A stretch of 35,034 nt of DNA, from positions 1-35,034 of IMG/VR virus record IMGVR_UViG_3300032893_000200; one strand, 5' to 3'. Shown here in pieces: positions 1 to 34,951 of this stretch. Source of the DNA: a virus. Position numbers and translations under genes: made by a program. The notes under the pieces are model-generated. The model worked only from the letters and a program-made list of their open reading frames with translations. It was not told the DNA's origin and did not search any database. Every line of letters starts with the position of its first letter. The stretch's first letter is position 1.

Positions 1-9
1 ACTCACATT

Positions 10-37
10 TTGCCGCCCGTTGAAACGGGTATAAAAT
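10..37 (+). promoter_or_regulatory. Candidate rightward promoter at the left end
   Basis: A -35-like TTGCCG (10-15) lies 16 bp before a -10-like TAAAAT (32-37), which overlaps TATAAA (30-35). This AT-rich box stands out in a high-GC genome. The predicted start of transcription is near 44, about 11 nt before the first gene of the rightward virion operon. The spacer is occupied by a small hairpin. The call rests on box similarity and position only. Confidence 0.45.
16..29. repeat. Short inverted repeat inside the left-end promoter
   Basis: CCCGTT and AACGGG form a 6-bp inverted repeat with only GA between them (as a hairpin, CCCGT/ACGGG closing TGAA). It sits exactly between the -35-like and -10-like boxes at 10-37. 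That position is typical of an operator. It could instead be the stem of a weak leftward terminator or leader. Which one cannot be decided from sequence. Confidence 0.4.
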
Positions 38-54
38 GGGTGTAGGGTACGGAT

Positions 55-705
55 ATGTTCCTCAGCCTATGTTTCATGTCCGCGGTTTTGCTTATGGTTG
101 TTGCTTTGCAGGCCGACCAGCTACGAAAAATCAGGCGACATCTACGGGAAAACGACCAACGTACGGCGAAGGCAATCCAGACGGCCGAGGGGGCGATACG
201 AAATGCGGAGCAGAAAGCGAAAGCAGTCCGAGAGGAGGCTGCGAGAAGTCTTAGCGCAATACGACAATCCTACGACGAACAGCAGAAGCATCTCGTGGAT
301 AGACTTATCGAACTCGCTAACCGGCCGGCGACTATCCTCCCCGCACCAGACCTCGCACCTATCGTAAAACAAATAGGCGAAGCCGTCGCACAAGTTGCGT
401 ACGGACCAGAACGTCCTCTACTTACGGCTGAACAAGCGACGGCCATGACGTACGACCTCACACGGAACCTGGATACGGAAACGCTCGGCGAACCCAGCGG
501 TACGTGGATGCCTGACGTGGAGATGGACGAATGGATGGAGGAGCATGGCGTCCCGAACCGGCCGGGATGGATCGCCGGCGCCGCCCCGCCCACAATGCCC
601 GCCACGCCTGACACGTACCTGGCGGAAGCTCCACGTCCGCCAGGTGATACGATCCGTTTCGCATCCGGTCAGTCCGGGCCTGCGCCCATCGGAGGGATAG
701 AATAG
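55..705 (+). CDS. Membrane-anchored coiled-coil protein, first gene of the virion operon
   Basis: 216 residues, function unknown. The first 20 or so residues are hydrophobic (MFLSLCFMSAVLLMVVALQ), giving a signal-anchor. A long Lys/Arg/Glu-rich helix follows (about 22-90) with the look of a coiled coil. The C-terminal third is Pro/Gly-rich and probably disordered. The start at 55 keeps the anchor intact and has a GGGTACGGA stretch before it; an ATG at 79 is possible but would cut the anchor. A single span plus coiled coil resembles inner-membrane spanins, but nothing else supports that. It lies just downstream of the candidate promoter at 10-37 and ends directly before the next start. Confidence 0.75.
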   Translation: MFLSLCFMSAVLLMVVALQADQLRKIRRHLRENDQRTAKAIQTAEGAIRNAEQKAKAVREEAARSLSAIRQSYDEQQKHLVDRLIELANRPATILPAPDLAPIVKQIGEAVAQVAYGPERPLLTAEQATAMTYDLTRNLDTETLGEPSGTWMPDVEMDEWMEEHGVPNRPGWIAGAAPPTMPATPDTYLAEAPRPPGDTIRFASGQSGPAPIGGIE

Positions 706-6054: not shown

Positions 6055-6062
6055 CTGTTGAT

Positions 6063-24521: not shown

Positions 24522-25481
24522 CTAGAAGGGCTCGTAGTCCCGCAGGTCTTGGGTATCGACCGCACCCTCGGGGTCGGCTGGCAGGTCAGACAGAGGGAGC
24601 ATCCCGGCTCCCGCGTCCTCCACATCCACGTTACCCCACAGCGCATCAAACGGAATCCGCAAACTAGCCTCTACCGCGCGACGATTCCGCCAGACGACCT
24701 CACGGCGCTCCTCACGACGTCCGCCCTTCTGATGGACGGTCATTTTGGCGTCACTAGCGTAAGAGTCGGCACGCCACCCCGAGGACAAGAGTGGGTCGTA
24801 GAGAGGATGGTTATATCCGCTGAGGACCACAGCGCCCCGCACGTCTCGCAACGTACGTACGAGTTCTCGGTGATACTCGTCGTCTGTTTCGTGAGCGTAG
24901 TATTTCTTCTTTGAGCGAGTTTCGAGAACGTAAGGTGGATCGCAATAGAATACGGTATCTGGTCCGTCCCATTCCTTAAGGATGTCGAGCGCGTCACGAC
25001 ATTCAATCTGTACATGCCTAAGCCTATCGTGAATCCGTCCGAGTTTCTCCTGCCGTAACACCCAGCGATCCGCAACGTTATCCCCTTTTGCCCGCGACCA
25101 GTCCGCTTTATGTGCGAGTCGTTTCCCACTAATGCTCTGGTTCAGCACCGTGTAAAACTTCACAGCCTTTAAGACCGCATCTGTTTCCTGCTCATGGTCC
25201 AACGCCTGTTGAAACGTCTCACGTGCATACGGTGTCCAGCCCAATATACCAGCGAAACGATCAAACAGCCGGTCATCGCGGACAACGCTAAATAGATTGA
25301 CAAGCGAACTATCAAGGTCATTGTAGACCTCCACGGGCATCGCGTGCCGGTTCAGGAGGACGCTGGCTCCGCCGCCGAACGGCTCCACGTAAACGTGCGA
25401 GTCTGGGATAATGGGGAGGAGGTCCTTTAGCTGTTTGCCTTTGCCGCCAGCCCAGCGGATAAGATTTAACGTCGCACTCAC
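24522..25481 (-). CDS. DNA adenine methylase (D12 class, Dam-like)
   Basis: 319 residues, GTG start overlapping the upstream stop (TAGTG). It transfers a methyl group from S-adenosylmethionine to adenine N6. Motif X RWAGGKGKQL (9-18), the cofactor motif YVEPFGGGASVLL (31-43), VYNDLDSSLVNLF (52-64) and catalytic DPPY (181-184) are all present, and the length fits Dam-type enzymes. Target specificity is not readable from sequence. The last 50 residues are acidic and probably disordered. No restriction partner is nearby, so self-protection of phage DNA is the likely role. It is the last gene of the leftward operon. Confidence 0.93.
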   Translation of the reverse strand: MSATLNLIRWAGGKGKQLKDLLPIIPDSHVYVEPFGGGASVLLNRHAMPVEVYNDLDSSLVNLFSVVRDDRLFDRFAGILGWTPYARETFQQALDHEQETDAVLKAVKFYTVLNQSISGKRLAHKADWSRAKGDNVADRWVLRQEKLGRIHDRLRHVQIECRDALDILKEWDGPDTVFYCDPPYVLETRSKKKYYAHETDDEYHRELVRTLRDVRGAVVLSGYNHPLYDPLLSSGWRADSYASDAKMTVHQKGGRREERREVVWRNRRAVEASLRIPFDALWGNVDVEDAGAGMLPLSDLPADPEGAVDTQDLRDYEPF

Positions 25482-25909
25482 TAGCTATCCCCGATATCGC
25501 CAGAAGTCGGGTGTTCGATCGCAGCGAGAACCGACCTGGCCTGCGCGATCGCCAACTCCTGCGCCTCATCTGCCGTAATCGCGACGTTGTCGCGGATGCA
25601 CGATCGAGCGTCCAGAATCGAGCGGAGAGCGTCGGCGAGGTCAGACGCGCGGGCCGTTTCGCGCGCCAGATCCTCGATCTTCATCGTGTAGGTGTTGATC
25701 AGGTCGTCAACGTGGAACGACCAGAACGGCACGGTACAGAGCGTGTGACCGCAAGCGCAGCCCGAGTAGACGAGCGGTTCGCCAGCGCGCGGTCGAGAGA
25801 AGGTCGGCGCGTGTCCTTCTCGGAGTCGGTGGATGTACGCAACAACGCCACCCGTCGGACTGGCTTCCATCGCCGCGCGCTGGCTGCTGGTGAGGTGGGT
25901 GTTGCTCAT
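25481..25909 (-). CDS. Hypothetical Cys-containing protein, 142 aa
   Basis: Overlaps the glycosylase gene upstream by ATGA and the methylase gene downstream by 1 bp. The segment SGCACGHTLCTVPFWSFHVD (about 49-68) has CxCGHxxC and could bind zinc, but a second Cys pair is missing. The C-terminal half is helical (LARETARASDLADALRSILD). No family is recognised. Co-transcription with a DNA repair enzyme and a methylase suggests a DNA-related accessory role, unproven. Confidence 0.65.
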   Translation of the reverse strand: MSNTHLTSSQRAAMEASPTGGVVAYIHRLREGHAPTFSRPRAGEPLVYSGCACGHTLCTVPFWSFHVDDLINTYTMKIEDLARETARASDLADALRSILDARSCIRDNVAITADEAQELAIAQARSVLAAIEHPTSGDIGDS

Positions 25910-26589
25910 GTTGGACTATCCCCTTGTTGGCCAAATAACGGGGCTACGGGTACCTTAAGCATCACCGCGCATCCTTTACAGAACCCCATCGTCTTCCCCC
26001 AGACGACCTCTACGTCATTCTTCTTACAACGCCCACACCACGAGTTCTCTAACCCTGGCATCTCTTCCCTAGCGATGACAGCAAACGTCTCCACGTCAAC
26101 GACGGCATCCGCCATCAAGTCAACGTTCCTCAACGTAGCGCTAGGATGGTACGTCGCCGTAGCCCATGCGGATTTCCCAGGCGCGATCTCCTGGTCCCAC
26201 CAGAGCCCATGCAAGTCGCTGATCCTCGACGAGAAAGGCAGCATGGCGTTCAGAGCTACCCCGCCCAGGACGAGAATGTACGACGGGTCGGCTGCTCGCA
26301 TCTGAGCGAGCAAGTTCGGTCTGCACAGTTCCACCTCCTGGCTGGTCGGCGTGCGGCCTGGATAGCACGATACCACATTAACGTACGACGTGTCGATAGG
26401 ATTTAAGCCCGCGCGCCAAAGCCAGGCTGACAGTTCCGCACCACTCCTGCCGACGAACGGCCTACCTTCCTGATCCTCCGTCTTGCCTGGTGCCTCACCG
26501 ACGACCAACACGTCAGACTTCAAGCTGAACACGCCCGGTACGGGGCCGTTCCCCACATGACACAGATCGCAGCTTGTGCATCCTTTCAC
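25906..26589 (-). CDS. Uracil-DNA glycosylase, family 4-like (Fe-S), with C-terminal zinc-ribbon-like tail
   Basis: 227 residues from GTG 26589, which has AGGGGA just upstream and overlaps the previous stop (GTGA). A longer frame exists but would run 106 bp into the nuclease gene. The enzyme removes uracil from DNA. Motifs: CTSC (C4/C7) and C...C around VSCYPGRTPTSQEVELC for the iron-sulphur cluster, GEAPG..ED..GRPFVGRSG (31-50) for the active site, and HPSATLRN near the C-terminal end of the core. An extra C-terminal piece (WCGRC and FCKGC) looks like a zinc ribbon not usual in this family. It either removes cytosine-deamination damage from phage DNA or attacks deaminated host DNA. Confidence 0.88.
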   Translation of the reverse strand: MKGCTSCDLCHVGNGPVPGVFSLKSDVLVVGEAPGKTEDQEGRPFVGRSGAELSAWLWRAGLNPIDTSYVNVVSCYPGRTPTSQEVELCRPNLLAQMRAADPSYILVLGGVALNAMLPFSSRISDLHGLWWDQEIAPGKSAWATATYHPSATLRNVDLMADAVVDVETFAVIAREEMPGLENSWCGRCKKNDVEVVWGKTMGFCKGCAVMLKVPVAPLFGQQGDSPT

Positions 26590-27248
26590 TTTTCCCCTGG
26601 CCGCAACCTGCTCCCTAACGCGCGATACAACGTCTCCGCTCGTCCCTTCCCCACTCCTTTGACGTTCTGCAACTCCCCTTGGCTCACCATCCATCCTAAC
26701 GGCACCCCCTCAAAGTAATCATAAATCCTGCCTGCCGTTTCCGCGCCGATCCCTTGAAACGATTGCAGCAGATGGATGCCCCAGTCACGACTTCCAACGG
26801 TCCCCCAGTCACCATTCGGATTGGGGCGGCCGGCGAGCGATCCGTGCCTGTTCTTCTGCAACCATTTCTCGACAAGCGGCAGCACGATCCTCGACTCGTC
26901 CACGCCATCCGTCGATATCACCCACAATCCTGAGCTTTGGACGGAGAACATCACGCCGTACCATTGCGCTCGGGTGAACGGCCGTCGTATCGCCATCAGA
27001 TTCCCGCTGCTTGACCATCGTACCTCCCCTTCCACCAACAATATCGCCTGCGCCAGACTCTTCATCTGGCCTAACTCTTTAGCCAACCGGCCGTCATGCA
27101 GACTGGCGACGAGATCACGTATCTCCTTACGCTGCACACCCACGAGTCCGTCCTTGCCTGGGAACAGGAAATCTGCGCCGTACTGTTCCGGCAGCGAGCT
27201 AACCGTCCCCAGTTCCTTCAACTTCTGCTCCGTGGGACTAACGAGCAA
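26586..27248 (-). CDS. ERCC4-type nuclease with HhH domain (XPF/Mus81-like)
   Basis: 220 residues from TTG 27248, supported by GGAG six bases upstream. The nuclease core has FLFPGKDGLVGVQRKEIRDL (about 27-46) and DGRLAKELGQM (52-62). The family signature is ERKxxxD; here the first residue is Gln (QRKEIRD). The C-terminus has two helix-hairpin-helix units (about 164-212): QGIGAETAGRIYDYF and VKGVGKGRAETLYRAL, which bind DNA. Such enzymes cut branched or flap DNA. It is coupled to the uracil glycosylase gene, pointing to a repair or recombination pair. Confidence 0.87.
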   Translation of the reverse strand: MLVSPTEQKLKELGTVSSLPEQYGADFLFPGKDGLVGVQRKEIRDLVASLHDGRLAKELGQMKSLAQAILLVEGEVRWSSSGNLMAIRRPFTRAQWYGVMFSVQSSGLWVISTDGVDESRIVLPLVEKWLQKNRHGSLAGRPNPNGDWGTVGSRDWGIHLLQSFQGIGAETAGRIYDYFEGVPLGWMVSQGELQNVKGVGKGRAETLYRALGSRLRPGEK

Positions 27249-27600
27249 CGATCTCTCCGCTTGGTACGCCAGCCTCAGGCGGCTCTCCGTACAGTCGAAT
27301 CATTGCCTCAACCATGCCCGTGTATGCGGCCAGTCCCTTACACAACGCCTGGCGTCCGAGAGGGTTATCTAAGCCTAACGTGCTTGCGCGGCGGACGTAC
27401 TGTAGGACCTGATTCTCCCACCAGCTACCGTCGCCGACGCCCTCTTCTGCCATAATAGGATCGTGGTCGGATTCCCGTACGGTATCGAACTTGTTGTCCG
27501 CGTAAATATACTCAGCCTGTAGCCATCGCATCCATGCGATCCGACTCCTACGCTGCACCTTAAACGCGTAGACCATCTTCCCCTTCATTTTATCTTCCAT
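27238..27600 (-). CDS. Hypothetical protein, 120 aa
   Basis: The start overlaps the endolysin stop as TGATG. The end overlaps the nuclease start by 11 bp. The N-terminus is basic (MEDKMKGKMVYAFKVQRRSR). The middle contains many Trp and Tyr (WMRWLQAEYIY; SWWENQVLQYV), and a helical part follows (RQALCKGLAAYTGMVEAMI). No enzymatic motif or membrane span is seen. No family is recognised. Confidence 0.6.
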   Translation of the reverse strand: MEDKMKGKMVYAFKVQRRSRIAWMRWLQAEYIYADNKFDTVRESDHDPIMAEEGVGDGSWWENQVLQYVRRASTLGLDNPLGRQALCKGLAAYTGMVEAMIRLYGEPPEAGVPSGEIVAR

Positions 27601-28295
27601 CAGTTAACTCCCAACAGTGCGTCCGCGGCTTCCCCGCCGAACACCATCCCGTTCACATTCCCGACGTTCTTAACCTTCTTCAAGTGGACGACGCCGTCCC
27701 GTGTCATCTTGCCGTATGCGTCCCCACTCTTCTTCACTAATCCCTTGCGTAACAGCAGGTCGTTCAACGTCTGCACGTCCACGCCCCTATCCCCAAACCT
27801 CAACGGATGGGCGGTCACTCGCATCCGCCATGCTGCTAGCTCCGCAATCTTCGTCCAGTCAACGGGCGGTGCGAGATGATAGTTAACATCAGGAATGATG
27901 AAACCGTCCTGATAGAAACTGACGTCAACGGTAGACGTATGAATCCCACTCCTAAACCCGTGTGCGGCCATCTCCGTACCGTCACCTAACGAGTACGACA
28001 CATGACCGAGCGGGCCGTAACCGTACCATTTTCCTTTGATGAGTGCGGCACCGCGTGTCTTCACGGCCGTATCAACGGACACGAGCCCGCCCACCCTCTT
28101 CGCCCAGTTGTAAATGTCTACGGTGTTACTGACCCCTGGCGGGACGACAACCCCCGCGTGCAGCAGTCCCGCGACGTACAACGCGCTACAGTCGTAGCAT
28201 GGGGCGTTTTCCACAATAGGACGGTGCAGACAGTACGGCTTACCTGTCTGAGCGAGTGCGAAATCAACGGCGACATAAATATCAGGCTGGGTCAT
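27600..28295 (-). CDS. NlpC/P60 endolysin with peptidoglycan-binding domain
   Basis: 231 residues. The N-terminal catalytic domain (about 1-140) has the NlpC/P60 motif YDCSAL with catalytic Cys36, GHVSYSLGDG with His98, and a third polar residue His112 in AAHG. The C-terminal domain (about 163-215) has LRFGDRGVDVQTLNDLLL and TRDGVVHLKKVKN, the peptidoglycan-binding repeat pattern. It would cleave stem-peptide bonds in the cell wall for lysis. There is no signal peptide, so a holin is needed; candidates lie at 10830, 24288 and 34856. It sits in the leftward replication operon rather than beside a holin, which is unusual. Confidence 0.88.
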   Translation of the reverse strand: MTQPDIYVAVDFALAQTGKPYCLHRPIVENAPCYDCSALYVAGLLHAGVVVPPGVSNTVDIYNWAKRVGGLVSVDTAVKTRGAALIKGKWYGYGPLGHVSYSLGDGTEMAAHGFRSGIHTSTVDVSFYQDGFIIPDVNYHLAPPVDWTKIAELAAWRMRVTAHPLRFGDRGVDVQTLNDLLLRKGLVKKSGDAYGKMTRDGVVHLKKVKNVGNVNGMVFGGEAADALLGVN

Positions 28296-28516
28296 GGCAT
28301 ACGTCCGTTGAGTAGACGTACAGCGCCGTCAATAGCTTGCGACGCTTCTGCCAGCGATTCCATGATAGCTTCCTTCTCATCTGGCGTTACGAGTCTATGC
28401 TTCACCAGATCAACGACATCTCGTGCGACCGCTTCCTTAATATCCGACACGTGATCGTACGGCGCAAACAGGTCAACGATATCGTCGAACAGTTCAGTCT
28501 CCGCATTCCGTCCCAT
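28292..28516 (-). CDS. Hypothetical helical protein, 74 aa
   Basis: The start at 28516 (TAATG overlap, GGAG six bases upstream) is preferred over an ATG 12 bp earlier. The sequence is acidic and all-helical (ELFDDIVDLFAPYDHVSDIK; EAIMESLAEASQAIDGAVRL). The stop overlaps the endolysin ATG as ATGA. No domain is recognised. It could be an accessory to the ATPase upstream. Confidence 0.65.
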   Translation of the reverse strand: MGRNAETELFDDIVDLFAPYDHVSDIKEAVARDVVDLVKHRLVTPDEKEAIMESLAEASQAIDGAVRLLNGRMP

Positions 28517-29316
28517 TAGACGCTCCATCCTGCGACAGTCAACAGATAATCAACGACGAAGTTTGTCAACGGTGCGTTCTCCACGACCTGTCGACTCCGC
28601 GCTCTGACAGTATTCATCACCCACGCCCCGGTCCCTTTCTTCCTCAACCGTACGATGTCGTGCATCAGGAAACCTGTGTGTTTCTCGCCGCCTGGGCGCA
28701 TTGCAGCGGTGCCATAGAAGTCACGAACATCCGCAGGGTCACCGCCCTTATTATTCACCGACGACGGCTGGACGACAGGCTTCTCATTCGCGCACAACAG
28801 CAGATGTCCAGGGTAACGGATCAGGTTGCCGACAAACTTTTCCTGATATCTCCGTTTAATAATCCCCCACGACACTCCATGCGCGTCAATGAACGGGTTG
28901 TCCTCCCCTTTCGACAGCCGTTCAACGGCCCAGTCGTCCAAGTCCTTCCCGCTCACGTCCAAAGAGAACGCAGATTGTACCGCATCCCATGCGGTGTCAC
29001 TACGGTCAACAACGAGTAAATCCTCAGGTCCGTCCGTTTCACGCGCCACCTTAACAGCACTAACATAGTCGTCGAACCGTTCCACATGACACACACTGAC
29101 ATTCTCTTCCCACCCTACGTACTGCTCCGTCGACGCCTCCGCACCCATGTCCGTGCAGATGACCCGTACTTTGGCCGTGCTGCCGGTGTCACGGAGCATC
29201 TTCGCCCAGTCAACCCACACTTGACTTTTCCCGCTGCCGTAGTCGCCGAAGACGATAATCCTCTCCCGACGACCGTTACTCTGGAGCACTTGGCGTATCC
29301 GTTTCCTCAGCAACAT
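28516..29316 (-). CDS. P-loop ATPase, RecA/Sak4-like recombinase candidate
   Basis: 266 residues from ATG 29316 (GAGG close upstream). GTG starts at 29334 and 29289 are alternatives, the latter with GGATACG upstream. Walker A is GDYGSGKS (24-31) and Walker B is DLLVVDRSD (99-107), followed by a helical and beta region with LIRYPGHLLLCANEKPVV and MHDIVRLRKKGTG. Length and motif spacing fit Sak4-type phage annealing or recombination ATPases. The gene directly upstream but one is a RecB/Cas4-like exonuclease, the usual partner. A replicative helicase loader is the main alternative. Confidence 0.75.
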   Translation of the reverse strand: MLLRKRIRQVLQSNGRRERIIVFGDYGSGKSQVWVDWAKMLRDTGSTAKVRVICTDMGAEASTEQYVGWEENVSVCHVERFDDYVSAVKVARETDGPEDLLVVDRSDTAWDAVQSAFSLDVSGKDLDDWAVERLSKGEDNPFIDAHGVSWGIIKRRYQEKFVGNLIRYPGHLLLCANEKPVVQPSSVNNKGGDPADVRDFYGTAAMRPGGEKHTGFLMHDIVRLRKKGTGAWVMNTVRARSRQVVENAPLTNFVVDYLLTVAGWSV

Positions 29317-29593
29317 TCGCCTCAGGCTGGTCACGGAAGCTTGCCAAATCCGTCACCCCGCCGCCGTTCGCCCCTGGGATAATCAGCCCCGATTTCGCCT
29401 GCGTCGCGGCCTTCTGTGCGTTCAGGCACATTGCGGTGATAGCTTCCGGCGGCCAGAACGTCACGTTCATCGTATCCGGCGTACGGATAGTCATAATGAC
29501 GATCGGCATACCGTTCGCGGACGCTGGTGCGAACTCGAAACTGGCGGGGATAGGGGCGAACTGAATAGCTTGATCGTTCGTAGGTGTGTCCAT
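29276..29593 (-). CDS. Hypothetical protein, 105 aa
   Basis: The ATG at 29593 has AGAGGAG five or six bases upstream and is preferred over a longer frame that enters the exonuclease gene. The N-terminal half has a beta pattern (FEFAPASANGMPIVIMTIRT, then PDTMNVTFWPP). The C-terminal half is a helix with a Gly/Asp tail. It sits between the exonuclease and the ATPase, so a role as a small recombination accessory is possible. The sequence shows no known domain. Confidence 0.65.
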   Translation of the reverse strand: MDTPTNDQAIQFAPIPASFEFAPASANGMPIVIMTIRTPDTMNVTFWPPEAITAMCLNAQKAATQAKSGLIIPGANGGGVTDLASFRDQPEANVAEETDTPSAPE

Positions 29594-29594
29594 C

Positions 29595-30536
29595 TTACTC
29601 CTCTGTTTTCTCGGTCTGGCCGTCCGCTTGTTGGACAATATCGTCACCCTCCTCGTACAATGTCACCCGCACCTGCGTAGACTTCGTCTCGTCCTTCCTC
29701 AAGTCGTCAGGGTTAATGCCCGCATCCCGCATCTTCTGCTCATCGAACGTGCGAGGGTTACGCTTATCGAAGTATGTCACAGCTACACGTTCAGACCTGT
29801 ACGACTTACGACCTGTAGCTTCATCTAGCAGCTTACGTAGCTTCGCCTTCGCATCCTTGCCTACCTTCTCAGCCGTCAGCGCAGCCTTGTACGACGTAGC
29901 TATGCCTTCAACCTCAAAGTTATCCGCGTCGTACGACACCTCTTCCAAGTACGAGAATGGACACGGCCATATGCGGACGTCACAGTCAACGGGCAGTTCC
30001 CCCAGACGAACAAACCTGTCAATCTCCAAGACGCGTGCTTTCAACTCGCCTAACGTAACGAACGGTTCGGTAACTTCTGTGATGTCCAGGTCGCCAGTCA
30101 GCCGGTTATATGCGACCAGCACGGCGGGCAGTTCCAACGCGTTCATGTACGACGACAGTTGCCACTTGTACTTCTGGATCAGACCGGGCGTATCCCAACC
30201 CATATGAATCCAGTCGTTGTACGCGGCGTCAGACATGCTCTTAGCTTCAACGATCCGCGCAGACTGGGCCTGTTCGCAGCCAATCCAATCAATGTGACCT
30301 TGTAGCAGGACGCGTGGAGTAACGGAAATGTTTACTTCTAACTGGGCGTTCGTCAACGTCCAGTCATTCTCCTCTAATGCGACGCCGATCTTAACTTCCG
30401 CGTCCGTTCCTTCCTGGAAAACGTCTAGCATCTTCTGCGGTGTCGCGAGCCGCTGATACTCCAACTTGCCGGCGACTTGCGACTTCACGCACCCGCCCAG
30501 TTCCGACGCGCGATAGACCCTGACGTCGTCGGTCAT
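29595..30536 (-). CDS. PD-(D/E)XK exonuclease (RecB/Cas4-like)
   Basis: 313 residues from ATG 30536 (GAGG six bases upstream; ATGA overlap with the previous stop). Motifs follow the order of the RecB-type family: SELGGC (11-16), GHIDWI with catalytic Asp83, VEAKS with Glu98 and Lys100, and KWQLSSYMNA (124-133) with Gln126. A single Cys (C16) lies in the first motif. I do not see the three C-terminal Cys of iron-sulphur Cas4. It probably resects DNA ends to give single strands for the nearby Sak4-like ATPase. Together they form a phage recombination module. Confidence 0.88.
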   Translation of the reverse strand: MTDDVRVYRASELGGCVKSQVAGKLEYQRLATPQKMLDVFQEGTDAEVKIGVALEENDWTLTNAQLEVNISVTPRVLLQGHIDWIGCEQAQSARIVEAKSMSDAAYNDWIHMGWDTPGLIQKYKWQLSSYMNALELPAVLVAYNRLTGDLDITEVTEPFVTLGELKARVLEIDRFVRLGELPVDCDVRIWPCPFSYLEEVSYDADNFEVEGIATSYKAALTAEKVGKDAKAKLRKLLDEATGRKSYRSERVAVTYFDKRNPRTFDEQKMRDAGINPDDLRKDETKSTQVRVTLYEEGDDIVQQADGQTEKTEE

Positions 30537-30715
30537 TCTATTCCTCTCGCGTCCATCCATACGGGCAGGTGACGAATCTCGGGCCCGCTACACGATGGCG
30601 GACCGTCATACGCGTCCAGTAGTTCAACCTGTCCGCATTCAGGACAGAGGTAAATGACCATCAATGATGGTGCTTCCTTCTTCTGCGAGAGGCGCTTACC
30701 TGACGTCTCACTCAT
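30533..30715 (-). CDS. Small zinc-binding protein, 60 aa
   Basis: Start has a strong GGAGGAG site. MVIYLCPECGQVELLDAYDG (about 19-38) has CPECG, and a further Cys lies in PPSCSGP. This is a half zinc ribbon; only three Cys are present, so His46 or another residue would have to complete the site. The stop overlaps the exonuclease start. It probably adapts protein or DNA contacts in the recombination module. Confidence 0.6.
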   Translation of the reverse strand: MSETSGKRLSQKKEAPSLMVIYLCPECGQVELLDAYDGPPSCSGPEIRHLPVWMDARGIE

Positions 30716-30753
30716 TGTAACTCCTCCATTTCAGAGGTCCCATTACGGGGAGT

Positions 30754-30793
30754 GGGGCCGTCGCCTCGGAAAACCCACGACGACGACGGCCCC
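30754..30793. repeat. 10-bp inverted repeat in the leftward operon
   Basis: GGGGCCGTCG (30754-30763) and CGACGGCCCC (30784-30793) are perfect reverse complements with a 20-base loop. It lies in the only sizeable gap (115 bp) of the leftward operon, with a second hairpin 4 bp away. Neither strand has a T-tract, so it is not a clear terminator. Confidence 0.65.
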
Positions 30794-30797
30794 AATG

Positions 30798-30825
30798 CTG
30801 CCTGGTCGTTCGGCGGACCAGGCAG
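30798..30825. repeat. 10-bp inverted repeat, second hairpin of a tandem pair
   Basis: CTGCCTGGTC (30798-30807) and GACCAGGCAG (30816-30825) are perfect reverse complements with an 8-base loop (GTTCGGCG). It begins 5 bp past the stop of the gene at 30831-31325. A processed or stalled leftward transcript would carry two stems here, just before the strong ribosome-binding site of the next gene. It may shape the relative expression of the two operon halves. Confidence 0.65.
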
Positions 30826-30830
30826 TTACC

Positions 30831-31325
30831 TTACGACGCCGGCGTTGTCACCTGCTGTCCGTGCGCCTGACCTTCCGCCTGAGCCTTCGCTTTCTCTTCC
30901 GCAGCCCGAGCCTTATCACGTTCCCGCTGCTTACGCTGAATGGTCGCTACACGTTCCTTCTCGGCGGCGACATGCGCATCATATGCGCCATCAACAATCT
31001 TCGACGGCGAGTAAATGACGAACAGGTGCCAGACGTCATCAATGTTACGGACGGCAAACTCATGCCCTGTTGCCGCCATCGTACGACCGTTCCGCTGCCT
31101 CAGCACATTAGCGGCAGCCTTCGCAGCCGTCTCATTGACGTACCGGCGGATGCTTACTGGCTTGTCCCATGCGTCGCGATTCGCGTGCAAATCAGCGAGC
31201 AACGTGTCGAACTCGCTGCCGCCTCCGCCGGACTTCCGTTCCGGTGCGGGAGGAAGCTCATCAAATACGATCGGGCCGGAATCGACGCTCCGAGTCCGCT
31301 TCGGCTTCTCTTCGGTCTGAGTCAT
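30831..31325 (-). CDS. Hypothetical phage protein, 164 aa
   Basis: Residues about 1-40 are charged and disordered. A folded core (about 40-115) has VSIRRYVNETAAKAAANVLR and FAVRNIDDVWHLFVIYSP. The last 45 residues form a Lys/Arg/Glu/Ala helix (KERVATIQRKQRERDKARAA) with the look of a coiled coil. No family is recognised. It lies between the 240-residue protein and the recombination genes in a tight operon. Confidence 0.65.
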   Translation of the reverse strand: MTQTEEKPKRTRSVDSGPIVFDELPPAPERKSGGGGSEFDTLLADLHANRDAWDKPVSIRRYVNETAAKAAANVLRQRNGRTMAATGHEFAVRNIDDVWHLFVIYSPSKIVDGAYDAHVAAEKERVATIQRKQRERDKARAAEEKAKAQAEGQAHGQQVTTPAS

Positions 31326-31330
31326 GTTAC

Positions 31331-32053
31331 CTACGCCTCATTTCTCAGGGTCGCATACAACCCTGTCTCGTCAGCCAACTGTGACACCAACTCCGCATTC
31401 TGCAACAGCCTGCCACCATCGTACCCCATGACGTCCTCGACCCACTGGCCGTGTTCCATCTGCTTCGCCTTCATCTTCAAGACGATACGGTCAGCGGGTG
31501 CGATAACATCTGACGACTGGTCGGCTGCTGCTGGTTGGGACGTTACCGCGGTCAATCCTGGCTGTCCATCACTGACGCCGAGAAACTTCGTCGGGAAGTT
31601 TTTGGTACTCACCCCTTCCCGTTCCTCACCCGTCTCCCGGTCCTTAAACTTGTACGGCCGGGCTGTCTCCTCAAAGAAGAACCTGAGCCCGACCCACACG
31701 CCCGCCTCAGTCATCTTGCCACGCTCACGCAACACGTCAATCGCCTCCGGGCAGTTGGCGATAATCTTCGTCACCAGTTGCCCGACCTGCGAGTTCATGT
31801 TGAACGTCTTCGTCGCATCCTCTGACTTGTGTTGGACTGTCTTACCGCCGTCCCATGTCTCCCAGTCGGGCGGGAGGTTGTACCGTTCCTCATGCTCAGG
31901 CTTCTCAGGCGCGTCCGTATCCATTTTCAGGATCAAAAACTTCGTCTGGCCTTGGTTATATGCGGGGTCGCTGCCAAAGTACGCCTCTCGTACCGTACCT
32001 TCATAGTTCGTCAGGTTACCCGACTCTGGCTGCCACGGGTCCTTCTCAGTCAC
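31331..32053 (-). CDS. Hypothetical phage protein, 240 aa (ssDNA-binding candidate)
   Basis: GTG start overlapping the previous stop (GTGA), with GGAGG five bases upstream. The first 140 residues show an OB-like beta pattern (NYEGTVREAYFG, TKFLILKMDTD, YNLPPDWETWDGGKTVQHKS, GLRFFFEETARPYKF). A Ser/Ala/Pro linker and a helical C-terminal part follow. Proteins with a similar opening occur beside phage recombination genes. A single-strand-binding partner for the exonuclease and ATPase would fill a gap, since no other SSB candidate is visible. That function is inferred, not shown. Confidence 0.65.
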   Translation of the reverse strand: MTEKDPWQPESGNLTNYEGTVREAYFGSDPAYNQGQTKFLILKMDTDAPEKPEHEERYNLPPDWETWDGGKTVQHKSEDATKTFNMNSQVGQLVTKIIANCPEAIDVLRERGKMTEAGVWVGLRFFFEETARPYKFKDRETGEEREGVSTKNFPTKFLGVSDGQPGLTAVTSQPAAADQSSDVIAPADRIVLKMKAKQMEHGQWVEDVMGYDGGRLLQNAELVSQLADETGLYATLRNEA

Positions 32054-32181
32054 TCGTCCTCCTCATCGTCAACTTCAACTTGTCCTGTGCCCTCGCACTC
32101 TACACAGTCAATCTCCGTCCCGCAATGCGGGCAGTCGTCGAGACCTGTGCCGTCACAATACGGGCACTCCTTCGTCGCCAT
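32050..32181 (-). CDS. CXXCXGXG zinc mini-protein, 43 aa
   Basis: AGGAG sits just upstream of the ATG, within the helicase stop. The protein has CPYCDGTG, CPHCG and CVECEGTG, six Cys in three pairs. CxxCxGxG is the repeat of the DnaJ central zinc finger, here miniaturised, and the tail is acidic (VEVDDEEDE). It is too short for automatic gene callers in many settings. Its place between helicase and the SSB-like candidate suggests a zinc-dependent adaptor. The function is unknown. Confidence 0.75.
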   Translation of the reverse strand: MATKECPYCDGTGLDDCPHCGTEIDCVECEGTGQVEVDDEEDE

Positions 32182-33804
32182 CTATCTCCTCCATTGCAGC
32201 GCATCCGTCCACCACGTAGGGAACAATCCTCTTGCGCTATTCCAAAGCCTGTCAAACTGCGAGTCCAACACGTACGTGACGGCTTTGTCCTGTTTATGCC
32301 GAACGCCTCTGCCGGTCATTTGCACTATCGACCGGACAGCCTGAACATTATACCATGTTTGCCCCCCCGTCGAGTGCATCCTAGCTGAAACCTGCCGGTC
32401 ACCTAAGTTGGGAAAAGGTACCTTTGCCACGATAATCACGGAGCACAAATCGTCAGGCAAGTCCACGCCACGATCCAAACTTGGCGCAATCAATATCCCG
32501 CCCATTTCCTTAAACTCTTCCACGACGGCGAGCTTCTCACCTGACGACGAATATGTCCACACGGGACGACTCTTCGGCACCAACTCCGCGATCTCGTTCT
32601 CCAACCAGCCTGCCAACTTATACGACACGGTGTGGATAAGGATGTTCTCGTACTCGTGCTGAAAGATCATCTTCATCAACGTGTCCAGCAGCTTCCCGCG
32701 CTCATCCTCTTGCGTCTTGCGGCTCATGTTGGCGACGGGTCGTACGACAATCGGCCGGTTCTCAACGGGGAACGTACTTTGCATGGTAACGGTACGAAAC
32801 TCCTTCTCCCAACCTAAGTCATCAACGACCATTTGACGTGCGGATATGGGCGTCGCGGACATTAGTAGCCATTTATCCCCTAACGGCCATAGCTGTCCGC
32901 GTGCCACCCGATCGACCTTCACGGGCTTAAACGAGATGGTCCCCCACTCTTCCTTCCTGGCGTCGCCGGTGAACACCCACCCACTTGAGTCCTGCTGTAT
33001 GACCCGTAGAGCCGCCGCCAAGCTCCCCAAAGCCTTCCGCTCCCGGCGCTCCTTCACGCTGGCCTGATCGAATCTCGGCAGACGTTCAACCTGAGCCTCA
33101 ACCTTCCCAATCGCATCAACGAACCAGTCACCCCACGACTCTTGGACGGTCACTTTCGCCGGCGCACGCAGCCCCAACATCCTCGCACGACGTACGGAAA
33201 TATCCACACTTACGTACCCCATCAACTCGGACTCAAGCGTGTCGCACTCATCCGCAATGACCAGCCTTCTCCCCGCCAACCTCCCCGGCCCGTTCCCTTC
33301 CGTTAACAAATACCGCGTATTCAGCACAGCCAACGGCGAACGTACAGCGTCATTCTTCGCAATCTCGTACGGACACGTCTGCTTGCTGCCGCACCATTCG
33401 CATTCTGGCTTATCCTTCGTCGCCGTACAGTCCGCGCACGTTACGTCCCAGACTTGCTTCAATGTCTGATAGTTACTGCGCCCTTTTAACACGGACGAGT
33501 ACGGGAAATCTTTGACGAACTGGTCCTGCAAGGCGATAGTCGAACACGCATATACGGCACTTGGCACGTCCATCAGGCGACGTACCAGTTCAGCGATAAG
33601 TGTCTTCCCTGAGCCCGTCGGAGCGTCCAAGACGACGACATCAACGTCCCCGAACGCGTCAACGATTTCCCTTACGACGGCCGCCTGCGCCTTCACGCGT
33701 CCCCAATCAACCCATTCCGGCAACCCTGCCATTAACGGATTCTCGGGTATCAGCAGCGAACGGCGCGCGGCGTTAATCTTTTCCAACGCTGAGTCTGATA
33801 GCAT
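32182..33804 (-). CDS. Superfamily 2 helicase, XPD/DinG-like
   Basis: 540 residues. Walker A DAPTGSGKT (60-68), the DExx motif as DECD (185-188), SATP (motif III) and QMTGRGVRHK near the C-terminus (motif VI) are present. Between Walker A and DECD lies a Cys cluster (C123, C126, C135, C138, C144), where XPD and DinG helicases bind an iron-sulphur cluster. These enzymes unwind DNA 5'-3' in family members studied. In the absence of a replicative polymerase gene, it is the main unwinding enzyme of the phage. AAGGGG precedes the start. Confidence 0.88.
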   Translation of the reverse strand: MLSDSALEKINAARRSLLIPENPLMAGLPEWVDWGRVKAQAAVVREIVDAFGDVDVVVLDAPTGSGKTLIAELVRRLMDVPSAVYACSTIALQDQFVKDFPYSSVLKGRSNYQTLKQVWDVTCADCTATKDKPECEWCGSKQTCPYEIAKNDAVRSPLAVLNTRYLLTEGNGPGRLAGRRLVIADECDTLESELMGYVSVDISVRRARMLGLRAPAKVTVQESWGDWFVDAIGKVEAQVERLPRFDQASVKERRERKALGSLAAALRVIQQDSSGWVFTGDARKEEWGTISFKPVKVDRVARGQLWPLGDKWLLMSATPISARQMVVDDLGWEKEFRTVTMQSTFPVENRPIVVRPVANMSRKTQEDERGKLLDTLMKMIFQHEYENILIHTVSYKLAGWLENEIAELVPKSRPVWTYSSSGEKLAVVEEFKEMGGILIAPSLDRGVDLPDDLCSVIIVAKVPFPNLGDRQVSARMHSTGGQTWYNVQAVRSIVQMTGRGVRHKQDKAVTYVLDSQFDRLWNSARGLFPTWWTDALQWRR

Positions 33805-33812
33805 CGTACCCC

Positions 33813-34295
33813 TTAGAAGTGGCTGAGTCGCGTCTCTATCTTAGAGCGGTATTCGGGGTCATCTAGATCAGCGAGGACCTGCACGGCGACGGCACGCGCA
33901 TTGATCCGTTCTCTGACGGTATGCGCGCGGTCTAGCAGCGTACAGACACCGTCGACAGTCTGTTTCTCAACAGCTTGATACGTCAACGCGTCCTCGGTCA
34001 CTTGCCAACGACGGTAAACCTTAGCGGCACGTTCCAACGCCTCACACCCGTCCATCTGCGACATTTCATCAAGCAGAAGACCTAACGCAACCCGCATGAA
34101 ATCCTTCGGCGTGCGGAAATATGGGTGCGTTCGCGAGGCTATAAACTCGCTGATGGCTTCCATGACGCCCGGAGCGACATCGACACGAATAGTGGTCGAA
34201 TGCCCCTTCTTGTCCGATGAGTGGACGAATCGGGCGTATCGGGCGGCCGGGTCCATTTTCTTCGCTTCCGTCGAGAAGTATGCCGATGCAATCAT
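33813..34295 (-). CDS. Ribbon-helix-helix DNA-binding protein, likely operon regulator
   Basis: 160 residues from ATG 34295 (AGGGTG upstream); ATG 34256 (147 residues) is an alternative. STTIRVDV (33-40) is the beta strand and PGVMEAISEFIASR (42-55) and TPKDFMRVALGLLLDEM (62-78) the two helices of an RHH (Arc/MetJ/CopG) fold, in which paired strands enter the major groove. The C-terminal 80 residues are helical and may oligomerise. It is the first gene of the leftward operon and is preceded by tandem 8-bp repeats (34302-34364) of the kind RHH proteins bind. Autoregulation is a strong inference. Confidence 0.75.
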   Translation of the reverse strand: MIASAYFSTEAKKMDPAARYARFVHSSDKKGHSTTIRVDVAPGVMEAISEFIASRTHPYFRTPKDFMRVALGLLLDEMSQMDGCEALERAAKVYRRWQVTEDALTYQAVEKQTVDGVCTLLDRAHTVRERINARAVAVQVLADLDDPEYRSKIETRLSHF

Positions 34296-34301: not shown

Positions 34302-34364
34302 CCCTGTCAAGCTCCCCGGCACCCCGTCACCCCGTCACCCAAAACGAGTGACGGGGTGACGGGG
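34302..34364. promoter_or_regulatory. Tandem 8-bp operator array in an 18-bp perfect inverted repeat
   Basis: CCCCGTCA occurs at 34322-34329 and 34330-34337, and its complement TGACGGGG at 34349-34356 and 34357-34364. Together they make an 18-bp perfect inverted repeat (34321-34338 and 34348-34365; 9-bp spacer CCAAAACGA). A variant CCCCGGCA (34314-34321) continues the 8-bp period, and CCCTGTCA (34302-34309) sits by the start of the RHH gene. No T-tract follows either arm, which argues against a terminator. Tandem direct and inverted short repeats are classic targets for RHH regulators. Confidence 0.75.
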
Positions 34365-34388
34365 TAAAGTGAACACCTTGTAAACCGC

Positions 34389-34419
34389 TTGACATGACCC
34401 CCCCGAAAAATGCTATATT
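34389..34419 (+). promoter_or_regulatory. Strong rightward sigma70-like promoter
   Basis: Consensus -35 TTGACA (34389-34394) and near-consensus extended -10 TGC-TATATT (34411-34419) are separated by 19 bp (or 17-18 bp if the -10 is shifted by one or two bases). The spacer has C-runs then A-runs. The expected start is near 34421-34426. It lies 24 bp from the operator array, so the RHH protein could regulate it. The transcript would run away from the leftward operon. Confidence 0.65.
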
Positions 34420-34420
34420 T

Positions 34421-34505
34421 CCTATCGGAGAGGCCGTCGAACCTCCCGCTCGATAGGTATGTCGAGAGCGACCCCCCGGCAAACGCCAGGGGGTCGTTTC
34501 TCGTC
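34421..34505 (+). ncRNA. Predicted small structured RNA of about 75-85 nt
   Basis: A promoter immediately upstream and an intrinsic terminator at 34469-34507 delimit a short transcript with no credible gene. Its 5' part folds: CCTATCG (34421-34427) pairs with CGATAGG (34451-34457), and inside GAGG (34430-34433) pairs with CCTC (34442-34445) around loop CCGTCGAA. The 3' part is the terminator stem. It could be a trans-acting RNA (it contains an AACCTCCCG stretch complementary to Shine-Dalgarno sequences), an early-terminated leader, or an antisense regulator. No known RNA family is recognised. Confidence 0.55.
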
Positions 34506-34507
34506 TT
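34469..34507 (+). terminator. Intrinsic terminator
   Basis: CGACCCCC (34469-34476) pairs with GGGGGTCG (34489-34496). After a single C/A mismatch the stem continues as GGC/GCC around an AAAC tetraloop. TTTCTCGTCTT follows on the plus strand. Stem, loop and T-rich tail are all there, so rightward termination is likely. On the minus strand the tail is absent. Confidence 0.8.
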
Positions 34508-34514
34508 CACCTAT

Positions 34515-34706
34515 CTACTCCGCGCCATCATTCCATGCGTGCGGGTGCTGTTCCTTATGTCGGGGCATGACGACCCGTTCCCCTTGCAAACGGCACCACT
34601 TCCCGCACACGCTACACTTGCCTGCGCGCGGCGGGGTCGTCTTTAACTCCACGGCGACAGTCCCTGAACCGTCACACGCATCCCATATCCTCGTCCCGCC
34701 TTTCAA
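34515..34706 (-). CDS. Zinc-binding mini-protein, 63 aa
   Basis: TTG start 34706, chosen because GGAGG lies six bases upstream inside the preceding gene (35-bp overlap). CDGSGT (about 11-16) and CSVCGKWC (31-38) place four Cys in zinc-finger spacing. The C-terminal part has basic and His residues (MPRHKEQHPHAW). A shorter form from an internal GTG is possible but loses the first Cys. No family is recognised. Confidence 0.55.
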   Translation of the reverse strand: MKGGTRIWDACDGSGTVAVELKTTPPRAGKCSVCGKWCRLQGERVVMPRHKEQHPHAWNDGAE

Positions 34707-34863
34707 CCTTCACCTCCATTTCCGTATCACATTGCGGACAGACGGCATACTCAACGTCGCCGTACTCTTCGTCAAGGAACACGGCGTCGTCTGTATGCCA
34801 TGCGACATCCCCCATCCACGCGCACGATGGACAGACGAACCAACCGTCGTACGGCTCAGTCAT
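34672..34863 (-). CDS. Zinc-ribbon mini-protein, 63 aa
   Basis: ATG 34863 has GGAGG five bases upstream (an ATG 3 bp earlier also exists). CPSC (about 11-14) and CPQC (about 42-45) are separated by an acidic beta pattern (DAVFLDEEYGDVEYAV), a minimal zinc ribbon. It overlaps the membrane peptide gene before it by 8 bp and the next gene by 35 bp. No specific function can be read. Confidence 0.65.
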   Translation of the reverse strand: MTEPYDGWFVCPSCAWMGDVAWHTDDAVFLDEEYGDVEYAVCPQCDTEMEVKVERRDEDMGCV

Positions 34864-34951
34864 CATCGCCTCCGCGCATATGCTTTAACCGCTTCCCTGT
34901 TACGATCGCCAACGCTAGAATCACCGTCCATACGACAAGCAGCCAGATCAT
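34856..34951 (-). CDS. Single-span membrane peptide, 31 aa
   Basis: MIWLLVVWTVILALAIVTGK spans the membrane once, followed by a basic stretch (RLKHMR) and an acidic GGDDD end. Start overlaps the previous stop as ATGA and the stop lies past the zinc-ribbon start (8 bp overlap), so it is embedded in a coupled series. Size and topology fit a small lysis or toxin-like peptide, but also many other small membrane proteins. Confidence 0.5.
   Translation of the reverse strand: MIWLLVVWTVILALAIVTGKRLKHMRGGDDD

Follow-up and report, generated by a model that had tools for sequence, protein, structure and literature searches.

Most small RNAs of phages have come to light through sequencing of phages in culture, and those that diverge quickly escape sequence comparison. 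In the gene order of lambda, the OOP unit lies next to the replication genes. In P22, the ribbon-helix-helix repressors Mnt and Arc are found near sar. The lambda pR'-tR' leader ("6S RNA") couples a strong promoter to a short terminated transcript. OOP RNA has a length of 77 nt and its own promoter (pO-tO), while sar RNA (68/69 nt) comes from a phage regulatory region (PMC12197685). The mechanism of Q antitermination has been described (PMC6606751). Cluster A mycobacteriophages make an abundant, early and stable non-coding RNA from a non-coding region at the right genome end (PMC5712189).

Here, we analyze a single phage contig of 35,034 bases, which is the complete IMG/VR virus record IMGVR_UViG_3300032893_000200 (the window). 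A preliminary description had proposed a small RNA with its own promoter and terminator at positions 34389-34507. We consider a dedicated short non-coding transcription unit, that is, a predicted small RNA gene, to be the best reading of this sequence (probability about 0.6), because the arrangement is positionally conserved in related phages. The layout of promoter, RNA and terminator is very probably that of a real small-RNA unit. This part of the earlier proposal stands and is strengthened by the relatives; the fold and the anti-Shine-Dalgarno action attributed to the RNA do not stand. A literature search returned analogues and no match to this module.

Position of the unit in the phage genome

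No end repeats were found in the 35,034-base window. Structural genes (terminase, portal, major head protein) are encoded rightward from position 76 to ~24.5 kb. The leftward genes from 24.5 to 34.3 kb form a replication/repair block, coding for a D12 methyltransferase, a uracil-DNA-glycosylase-like protein, an ERCC4-type nuclease, a Cas4-like PDDEXK protein, an XPD/DinG-type helicase and, as the first gene, a protein of 160 aa. The candidate unit points rightward and occupies the non-coding gap that separates two early blocks of leftward genes. The relevant features are the following.

32182-33804, minus strand: XPD/DinG-type DNA helicase, the landmark for finding relatives
33813-34295, minus strand: gene for a 160-aa protein, first in the divergent replication operon; its counterparts in relatives also lie upstream of the helicase gene
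34321-34365, no strand assigned: perfect 18-bp dyad composed of ACCCCGTC direct repeats; no hairpin in the contig is more stable
34389-34394, plus strand: -35 element TTGACA (6/6)
34411-34419, plus strand: extended -10, TG-C-TATATT (5/6), with a 19-nt spacer from the -35 element
34426-34500, plus strand: predicted short RNA (~75-80 nt) with three abutting hairpins, its start placed 7 nt after the -10
34426-34448, plus strand: predicted hairpin 1, CGG.GAGG / CCUCCCG, with a 3' arm that includes AACCTCCCG
34449-34466, plus strand: predicted hairpin 2, CUCGAUA-GGUA-UGUCGAG
34467-34499, plus strand: intrinsic terminator hairpin (from sequence and fold), CGACCCCC(C)GGC-GCC(A)GGGGGUCG, then UUUCUC
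34515-34706, minus strand: small convergent gene (63 aa, CxxC pairs), with a homologue in relative G006
34672-34866, minus strand: small leftward gene, also with a homologue in G006

The stop codon of the 63-aa convergent gene lies ~16 nt past the terminator. A simple codon-usage gene finder called no gene between 34295 and 34672, and no ORF in the interval is conserved or has codon support. The preliminary description, which saw no convincing gene here and named a conserved protein as one finding that would speak against its proposal, was right on this point. In the 160-aa protein encoded by the first gene of the replication operon, the N-terminal half shows a ribbon-helix-helix-like pattern at the sequence level. 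The assignment draws on this pattern and on one sub-threshold Pfam match, the latter in a relative; the fold was not confirmed for the 160-aa protein by a structure model or by profile and PDB searches.

Two side observations concern the wider contig. Positions 24522-33804 combine an XPD-type helicase, an ERCC4/XPF-type nuclease, a Cas4-like nuclease and a uracil-DNA-glycosylase-like protein in one replication block, and the ERCC4 nuclease had no match among 50,697 annotated phages. Several contigs of the family start shortly upstream of one and the same small gene, the first of the late genes (window 1-76; L089, 5225-5952; start of L092), which suggests a fixed genome end there.

Promoter, terminator and predicted RNA

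Both promoter elements of the preliminary description are present: the -35 element matches the consensus at all six positions, and the extended -10 (TGC-TATATT) is found as claimed, to which we add the 19-nt spacer. At spacings of 16-19, the 35-kb contig holds no second sigma-70-type site with one mismatch or none. By chance, 0.055 such sites are expected per contig (dinucleotide shuffles), and a version with an extended -10 was seen in 2 of 200 shuffles. The stem of the terminator (34467-34498) is GC-rich and, among the 46-nt windows of both strands, falls within the top 0.04% for stability; in the contig, it is equaled or surpassed only by the dyad at 34321-34365 and by a comparable site near 6061. 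The best promoter of the contig is thus flanked by two of its strongest hairpins, the dyad on one side and the terminator stem on the other. Promoter and terminator elements are supported at the level of sequence and statistics. The stem is followed by UUUCUCGUCUU, and its U-tract is short (just UUU). The hairpin had been called a "near-perfect intrinsic terminator"; the strong GC-rich stem is confirmed, and the U-tract needs correction. The hairpin is oriented for the RNA, because the U run is present on the plus strand only, with none on the other strand. A consensus scanner with a strict U-run requirement lists neither promoter nor terminator of the unit. The promoter is missed because its spacer of 19 nt is longer than the usual 17 nt, and the terminator because its U-tract is only UUU.

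Judged from its sequence, the dyad between the unit and the replication operon is operator- or origin-like. On the window's minus strand, a further type of site is located at 34310, where TTGAC(A/G) is followed by a -10-like TAnnnT after only 7-9 nt, which is one helical turn shorter than in a normal promoter. Such sites also occur at L029:8006 (-), L030:13307 and 13439 (+), L037:1571 (-) and L058:4776 (+). There are 14 of them in 274 kb, about half inside the gap, where few are expected.

When folded from position 34426, the predicted transcript forms hairpin 1, hairpin 2 and the terminator (-43.2 kcal/mol; z -4.35 against shuffles). A different fold had been proposed, with a 7-bp outer stem (34421-34427/34451-34457). 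We dropped this stem as an RNA fold: the transcript predicted to start at ~34426 lacks most of the 5' arm, and the isolated stem barely beats shuffles (z -1.14).

The proposal that AACCTCCCG is an anti-Shine-Dalgarno element fared no better. In hairpin 1, its bases are paired and make up the 3' arm. The contig contains the complement of AACCTCCCG 14 times versus 9.5 expected, which is no enrichment; the RNA pairs with translation starts no better than with random segments, and CCTCC-type motifs are not enriched among the related RNAs. The anti-Shine-Dalgarno regulator was therefore rejected, with CCUCC paired, not enriched and showing no preference for start regions. A search for complementary targets of the RNA in the phage returned none beyond chance. 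The RNA overlaps no called gene, and an antisense role would require leftward transcription across the locus.

Equivalent units in related phages

A direct DNA search of annotated phages gave no match to the window, and single-protein searches with the helicase and with the first-gene protein found nothing. Seventeen related IMG/VR contigs were obtained via the major head protein, and more via profiles of the helicase and the ERCC4 nuclease. In the syntenic contigs, counterparts of the first gene are located upstream of the helicase, and the helicases are 35-50% identical. A search of genomes for a host returned distant helicases only and no host. When the unit itself was used in a DNA search of the relatives, there was no meaningful match, and Rfam scans found no family in the window and none at gathering score at the units of nine relatives.

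Nevertheless, the gap upstream of the first gene repeatedly contains the same succession of elements in the relatives: first a long dyad, then TTGAC(A/G/T) and a -10, followed by structured RNA of 35-100 nt and a GC-rich terminator. These units read away from the helicase operon, as in the window. Clear units are found in the following loci.

L029/L035: TTGACA-18-TATAGT, with a 17-bp perfect terminator stem
L031/L040: TTGACA-19-TATGAT
L044: clear unit
L077 (G018): TTGACA-16-TATACT
L038: TTGACT-17-TATAAT with TG extension, further upstream

In L037, L041, L045, L058 and L036, the -10 or the spacing is weaker. For a strict count, at most two promoter mismatches were allowed, and a hairpin of -22 kcal/mol or better had to follow within 30-170 nt. 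Across 27 non-redundant loci, five strict units fall into the 42.6 kb of divergent upstream zone versus one in the other 763 kb, so that ~0.06 units would be expected in the zone at the outside rate; as the zone, the thresholds and the hairpin cut-off were chosen after the units had been seen by eye, these numbers express the strength of the pattern and are not a blind test. The single outside unit is that of L038, which has the same orientation and lies outside the zone owing to a longer operon. Of the 27 helicase-bearing loci, about half have no unit that is recognizable under these criteria.

The predicted RNAs of the relatives have lengths of 80-140 nt and cannot be aligned. What is conserved is their position, their length and their layout. 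The pre-terminator parts all have energies at or below those of shuffles (mean z -1.24 for 11 RNAs versus -0.40 for random windows from the same contigs), which is a modest excess of structure. Long dyads are found at the corresponding place, and their sequences, too, are unrelated, as would be expected if they were operators and the repressor co-evolved with them. Several relatives have a promoter-like site that points leftward between dyad and operon, which results in a divergent promoter pair around the operator-like dyad.

In most relatives, the terminator is within ~75 nt of the stop codon of a convergent gene and could also serve that gene. G018 is different in this respect. Its 635-bp gap contains two complete tandem units (L077; also L098, which is G018:32000-38451, at 2140-2775), and ~480 nt separate the first terminator from the closest stop codon of a convergent gene. 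This terminator therefore serves the short RNA and not a neighboring gene. The same gap (L098) also holds a perfect dyad of 23 bp around a T8 loop. As a separate observation, the small-gene region of L044 (2049-2111, plus strand) has a match to the type II hammerhead ribozyme, with 39 bits (gathering threshold 37).

Proposed function of the unit and comparison with known systems

We propose that transcription would start at ~34426 from the housekeeping-type promoter (34389-34419), pass through two hairpins and stop at the intrinsic terminator, yielding an RNA of ~80 nt. The unit would fire rightward, divergent from the replication operon (first gene and helicase) and between two leftward early operons. 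A phage regulator probably controls it at the operator-like dyad between unit and replication operon, and the ribbon-helix-helix-like protein encoded by the first gene of that operon is the candidate for this role. The product is most likely a structured regulatory RNA of the early or replication phase, like lambda OOP and P22 sar, with targets that may change from phage to phage.

The RNA itself might be dispensable if it is the act of transcription or termination that matters, either by opening a replication origin at the dyad or by keeping leftward transcription of the small-gene operon from running on into the replication operon. Position and layout are kept while the RNA sequence is not, the unit adjoins both the replication operon and the large dyad, and the terminators are close to a convergent stop codon in most relatives, all of which would fit. 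In lambda, the pO promoter matters for replication even though OOP RNA is not the primer (PMC12197685). However, the RNA bodies are somewhat more structured than random windows, and the first terminator of the tandem unit in G018 is far from any convergent gene. We regard this explanation as rather unlikely.

A late-promoter leader of the pR'-tR' type, extended into downstream genes by a Q-like antiterminator, is improbable. The locus resembles this system in having a strong promoter and a short terminated transcript (promoter, ~80-190 nt, terminator), and the late genes run in the same direction as the unit. L075 has a co-directional gene after a similar promoter and hairpin (an endolysin identity considered for this gene is unsupported by PHROGs or Pfam). 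This reading is disfavored because the genes past the terminator face the opposite way in most relatives, as seen in the window, G006, G007 and G016. In addition, the late genes of G007 begin ~5 kb further on, after a separate gap of 0.7 kb, contigs tend to break before the first late gene, so that a genome end may lie between, and no Q homologue was identified.

Slightly less probable still is that the arrangement is due to chance or that the promoter is inactive, with the hairpin serving only to terminate the convergent small gene. The long spacer, the weak U-tract and the failure of the consensus scan would agree with this, as would the bidirectional-looking terminators of several relatives, but the units are positionally enriched in the relatives, the promoter is unique in the contig, and the U run of the window's hairpin has the orientation suited to the RNA. 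That the transcript is an RNA anti-CRISPR (Racr) mimicking a host CRISPR repeat is very hard to believe: phages encode Racrs, which are small RNAs, in the form of solitary repeat units (PMC10651486), and host-specific repeats would account for the sequence turnover, but Rfam scans found no CRISPR-DR family in the window, nor in the relatives at the gathering threshold, and no repeat-like hairpin is common to the units.

Returning to a stand-alone short RNA gene, it is tempting to speculate further. At a fixed place beside the replication operon, the phage family may keep a module for a short RNA, with dyad, promoter, structured RNA and terminator, in some cases two in tandem. Its architecture would be conserved despite a complete turnover of the sequence, such that every phage would control its early switch or its host by a fast-evolving RNA of its own. 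We put this forward tentatively. The analysis provides coordinates for candidate small RNA genes in uncultivated phages, identified from position and layout alone. This suggests a route to such genes elsewhere, by scanning conserved gaps for promoter-terminator pairs.

Among the described RNAs, that of Cluster A mycobacteriophages is similar in being a non-coding RNA from a non-coding region of a phage. Its region of ~500 nt is, however, without an evident stem-loop terminator and is located at the head of an early operon, not divergent from one. P22 sar is likewise a short RNA in a phage regulatory region; while sar pairs with the ant mRNA, no antisense partner was found for the RNA of the window. 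OOP differs in being antisense to cII, whereas the RNA of the window overlaps no gene and lies upstream of the operon, across the dyad. In other respects, OOP has the same traits as the unit in the window: a short RNA with its own promoter, located by replication genes.
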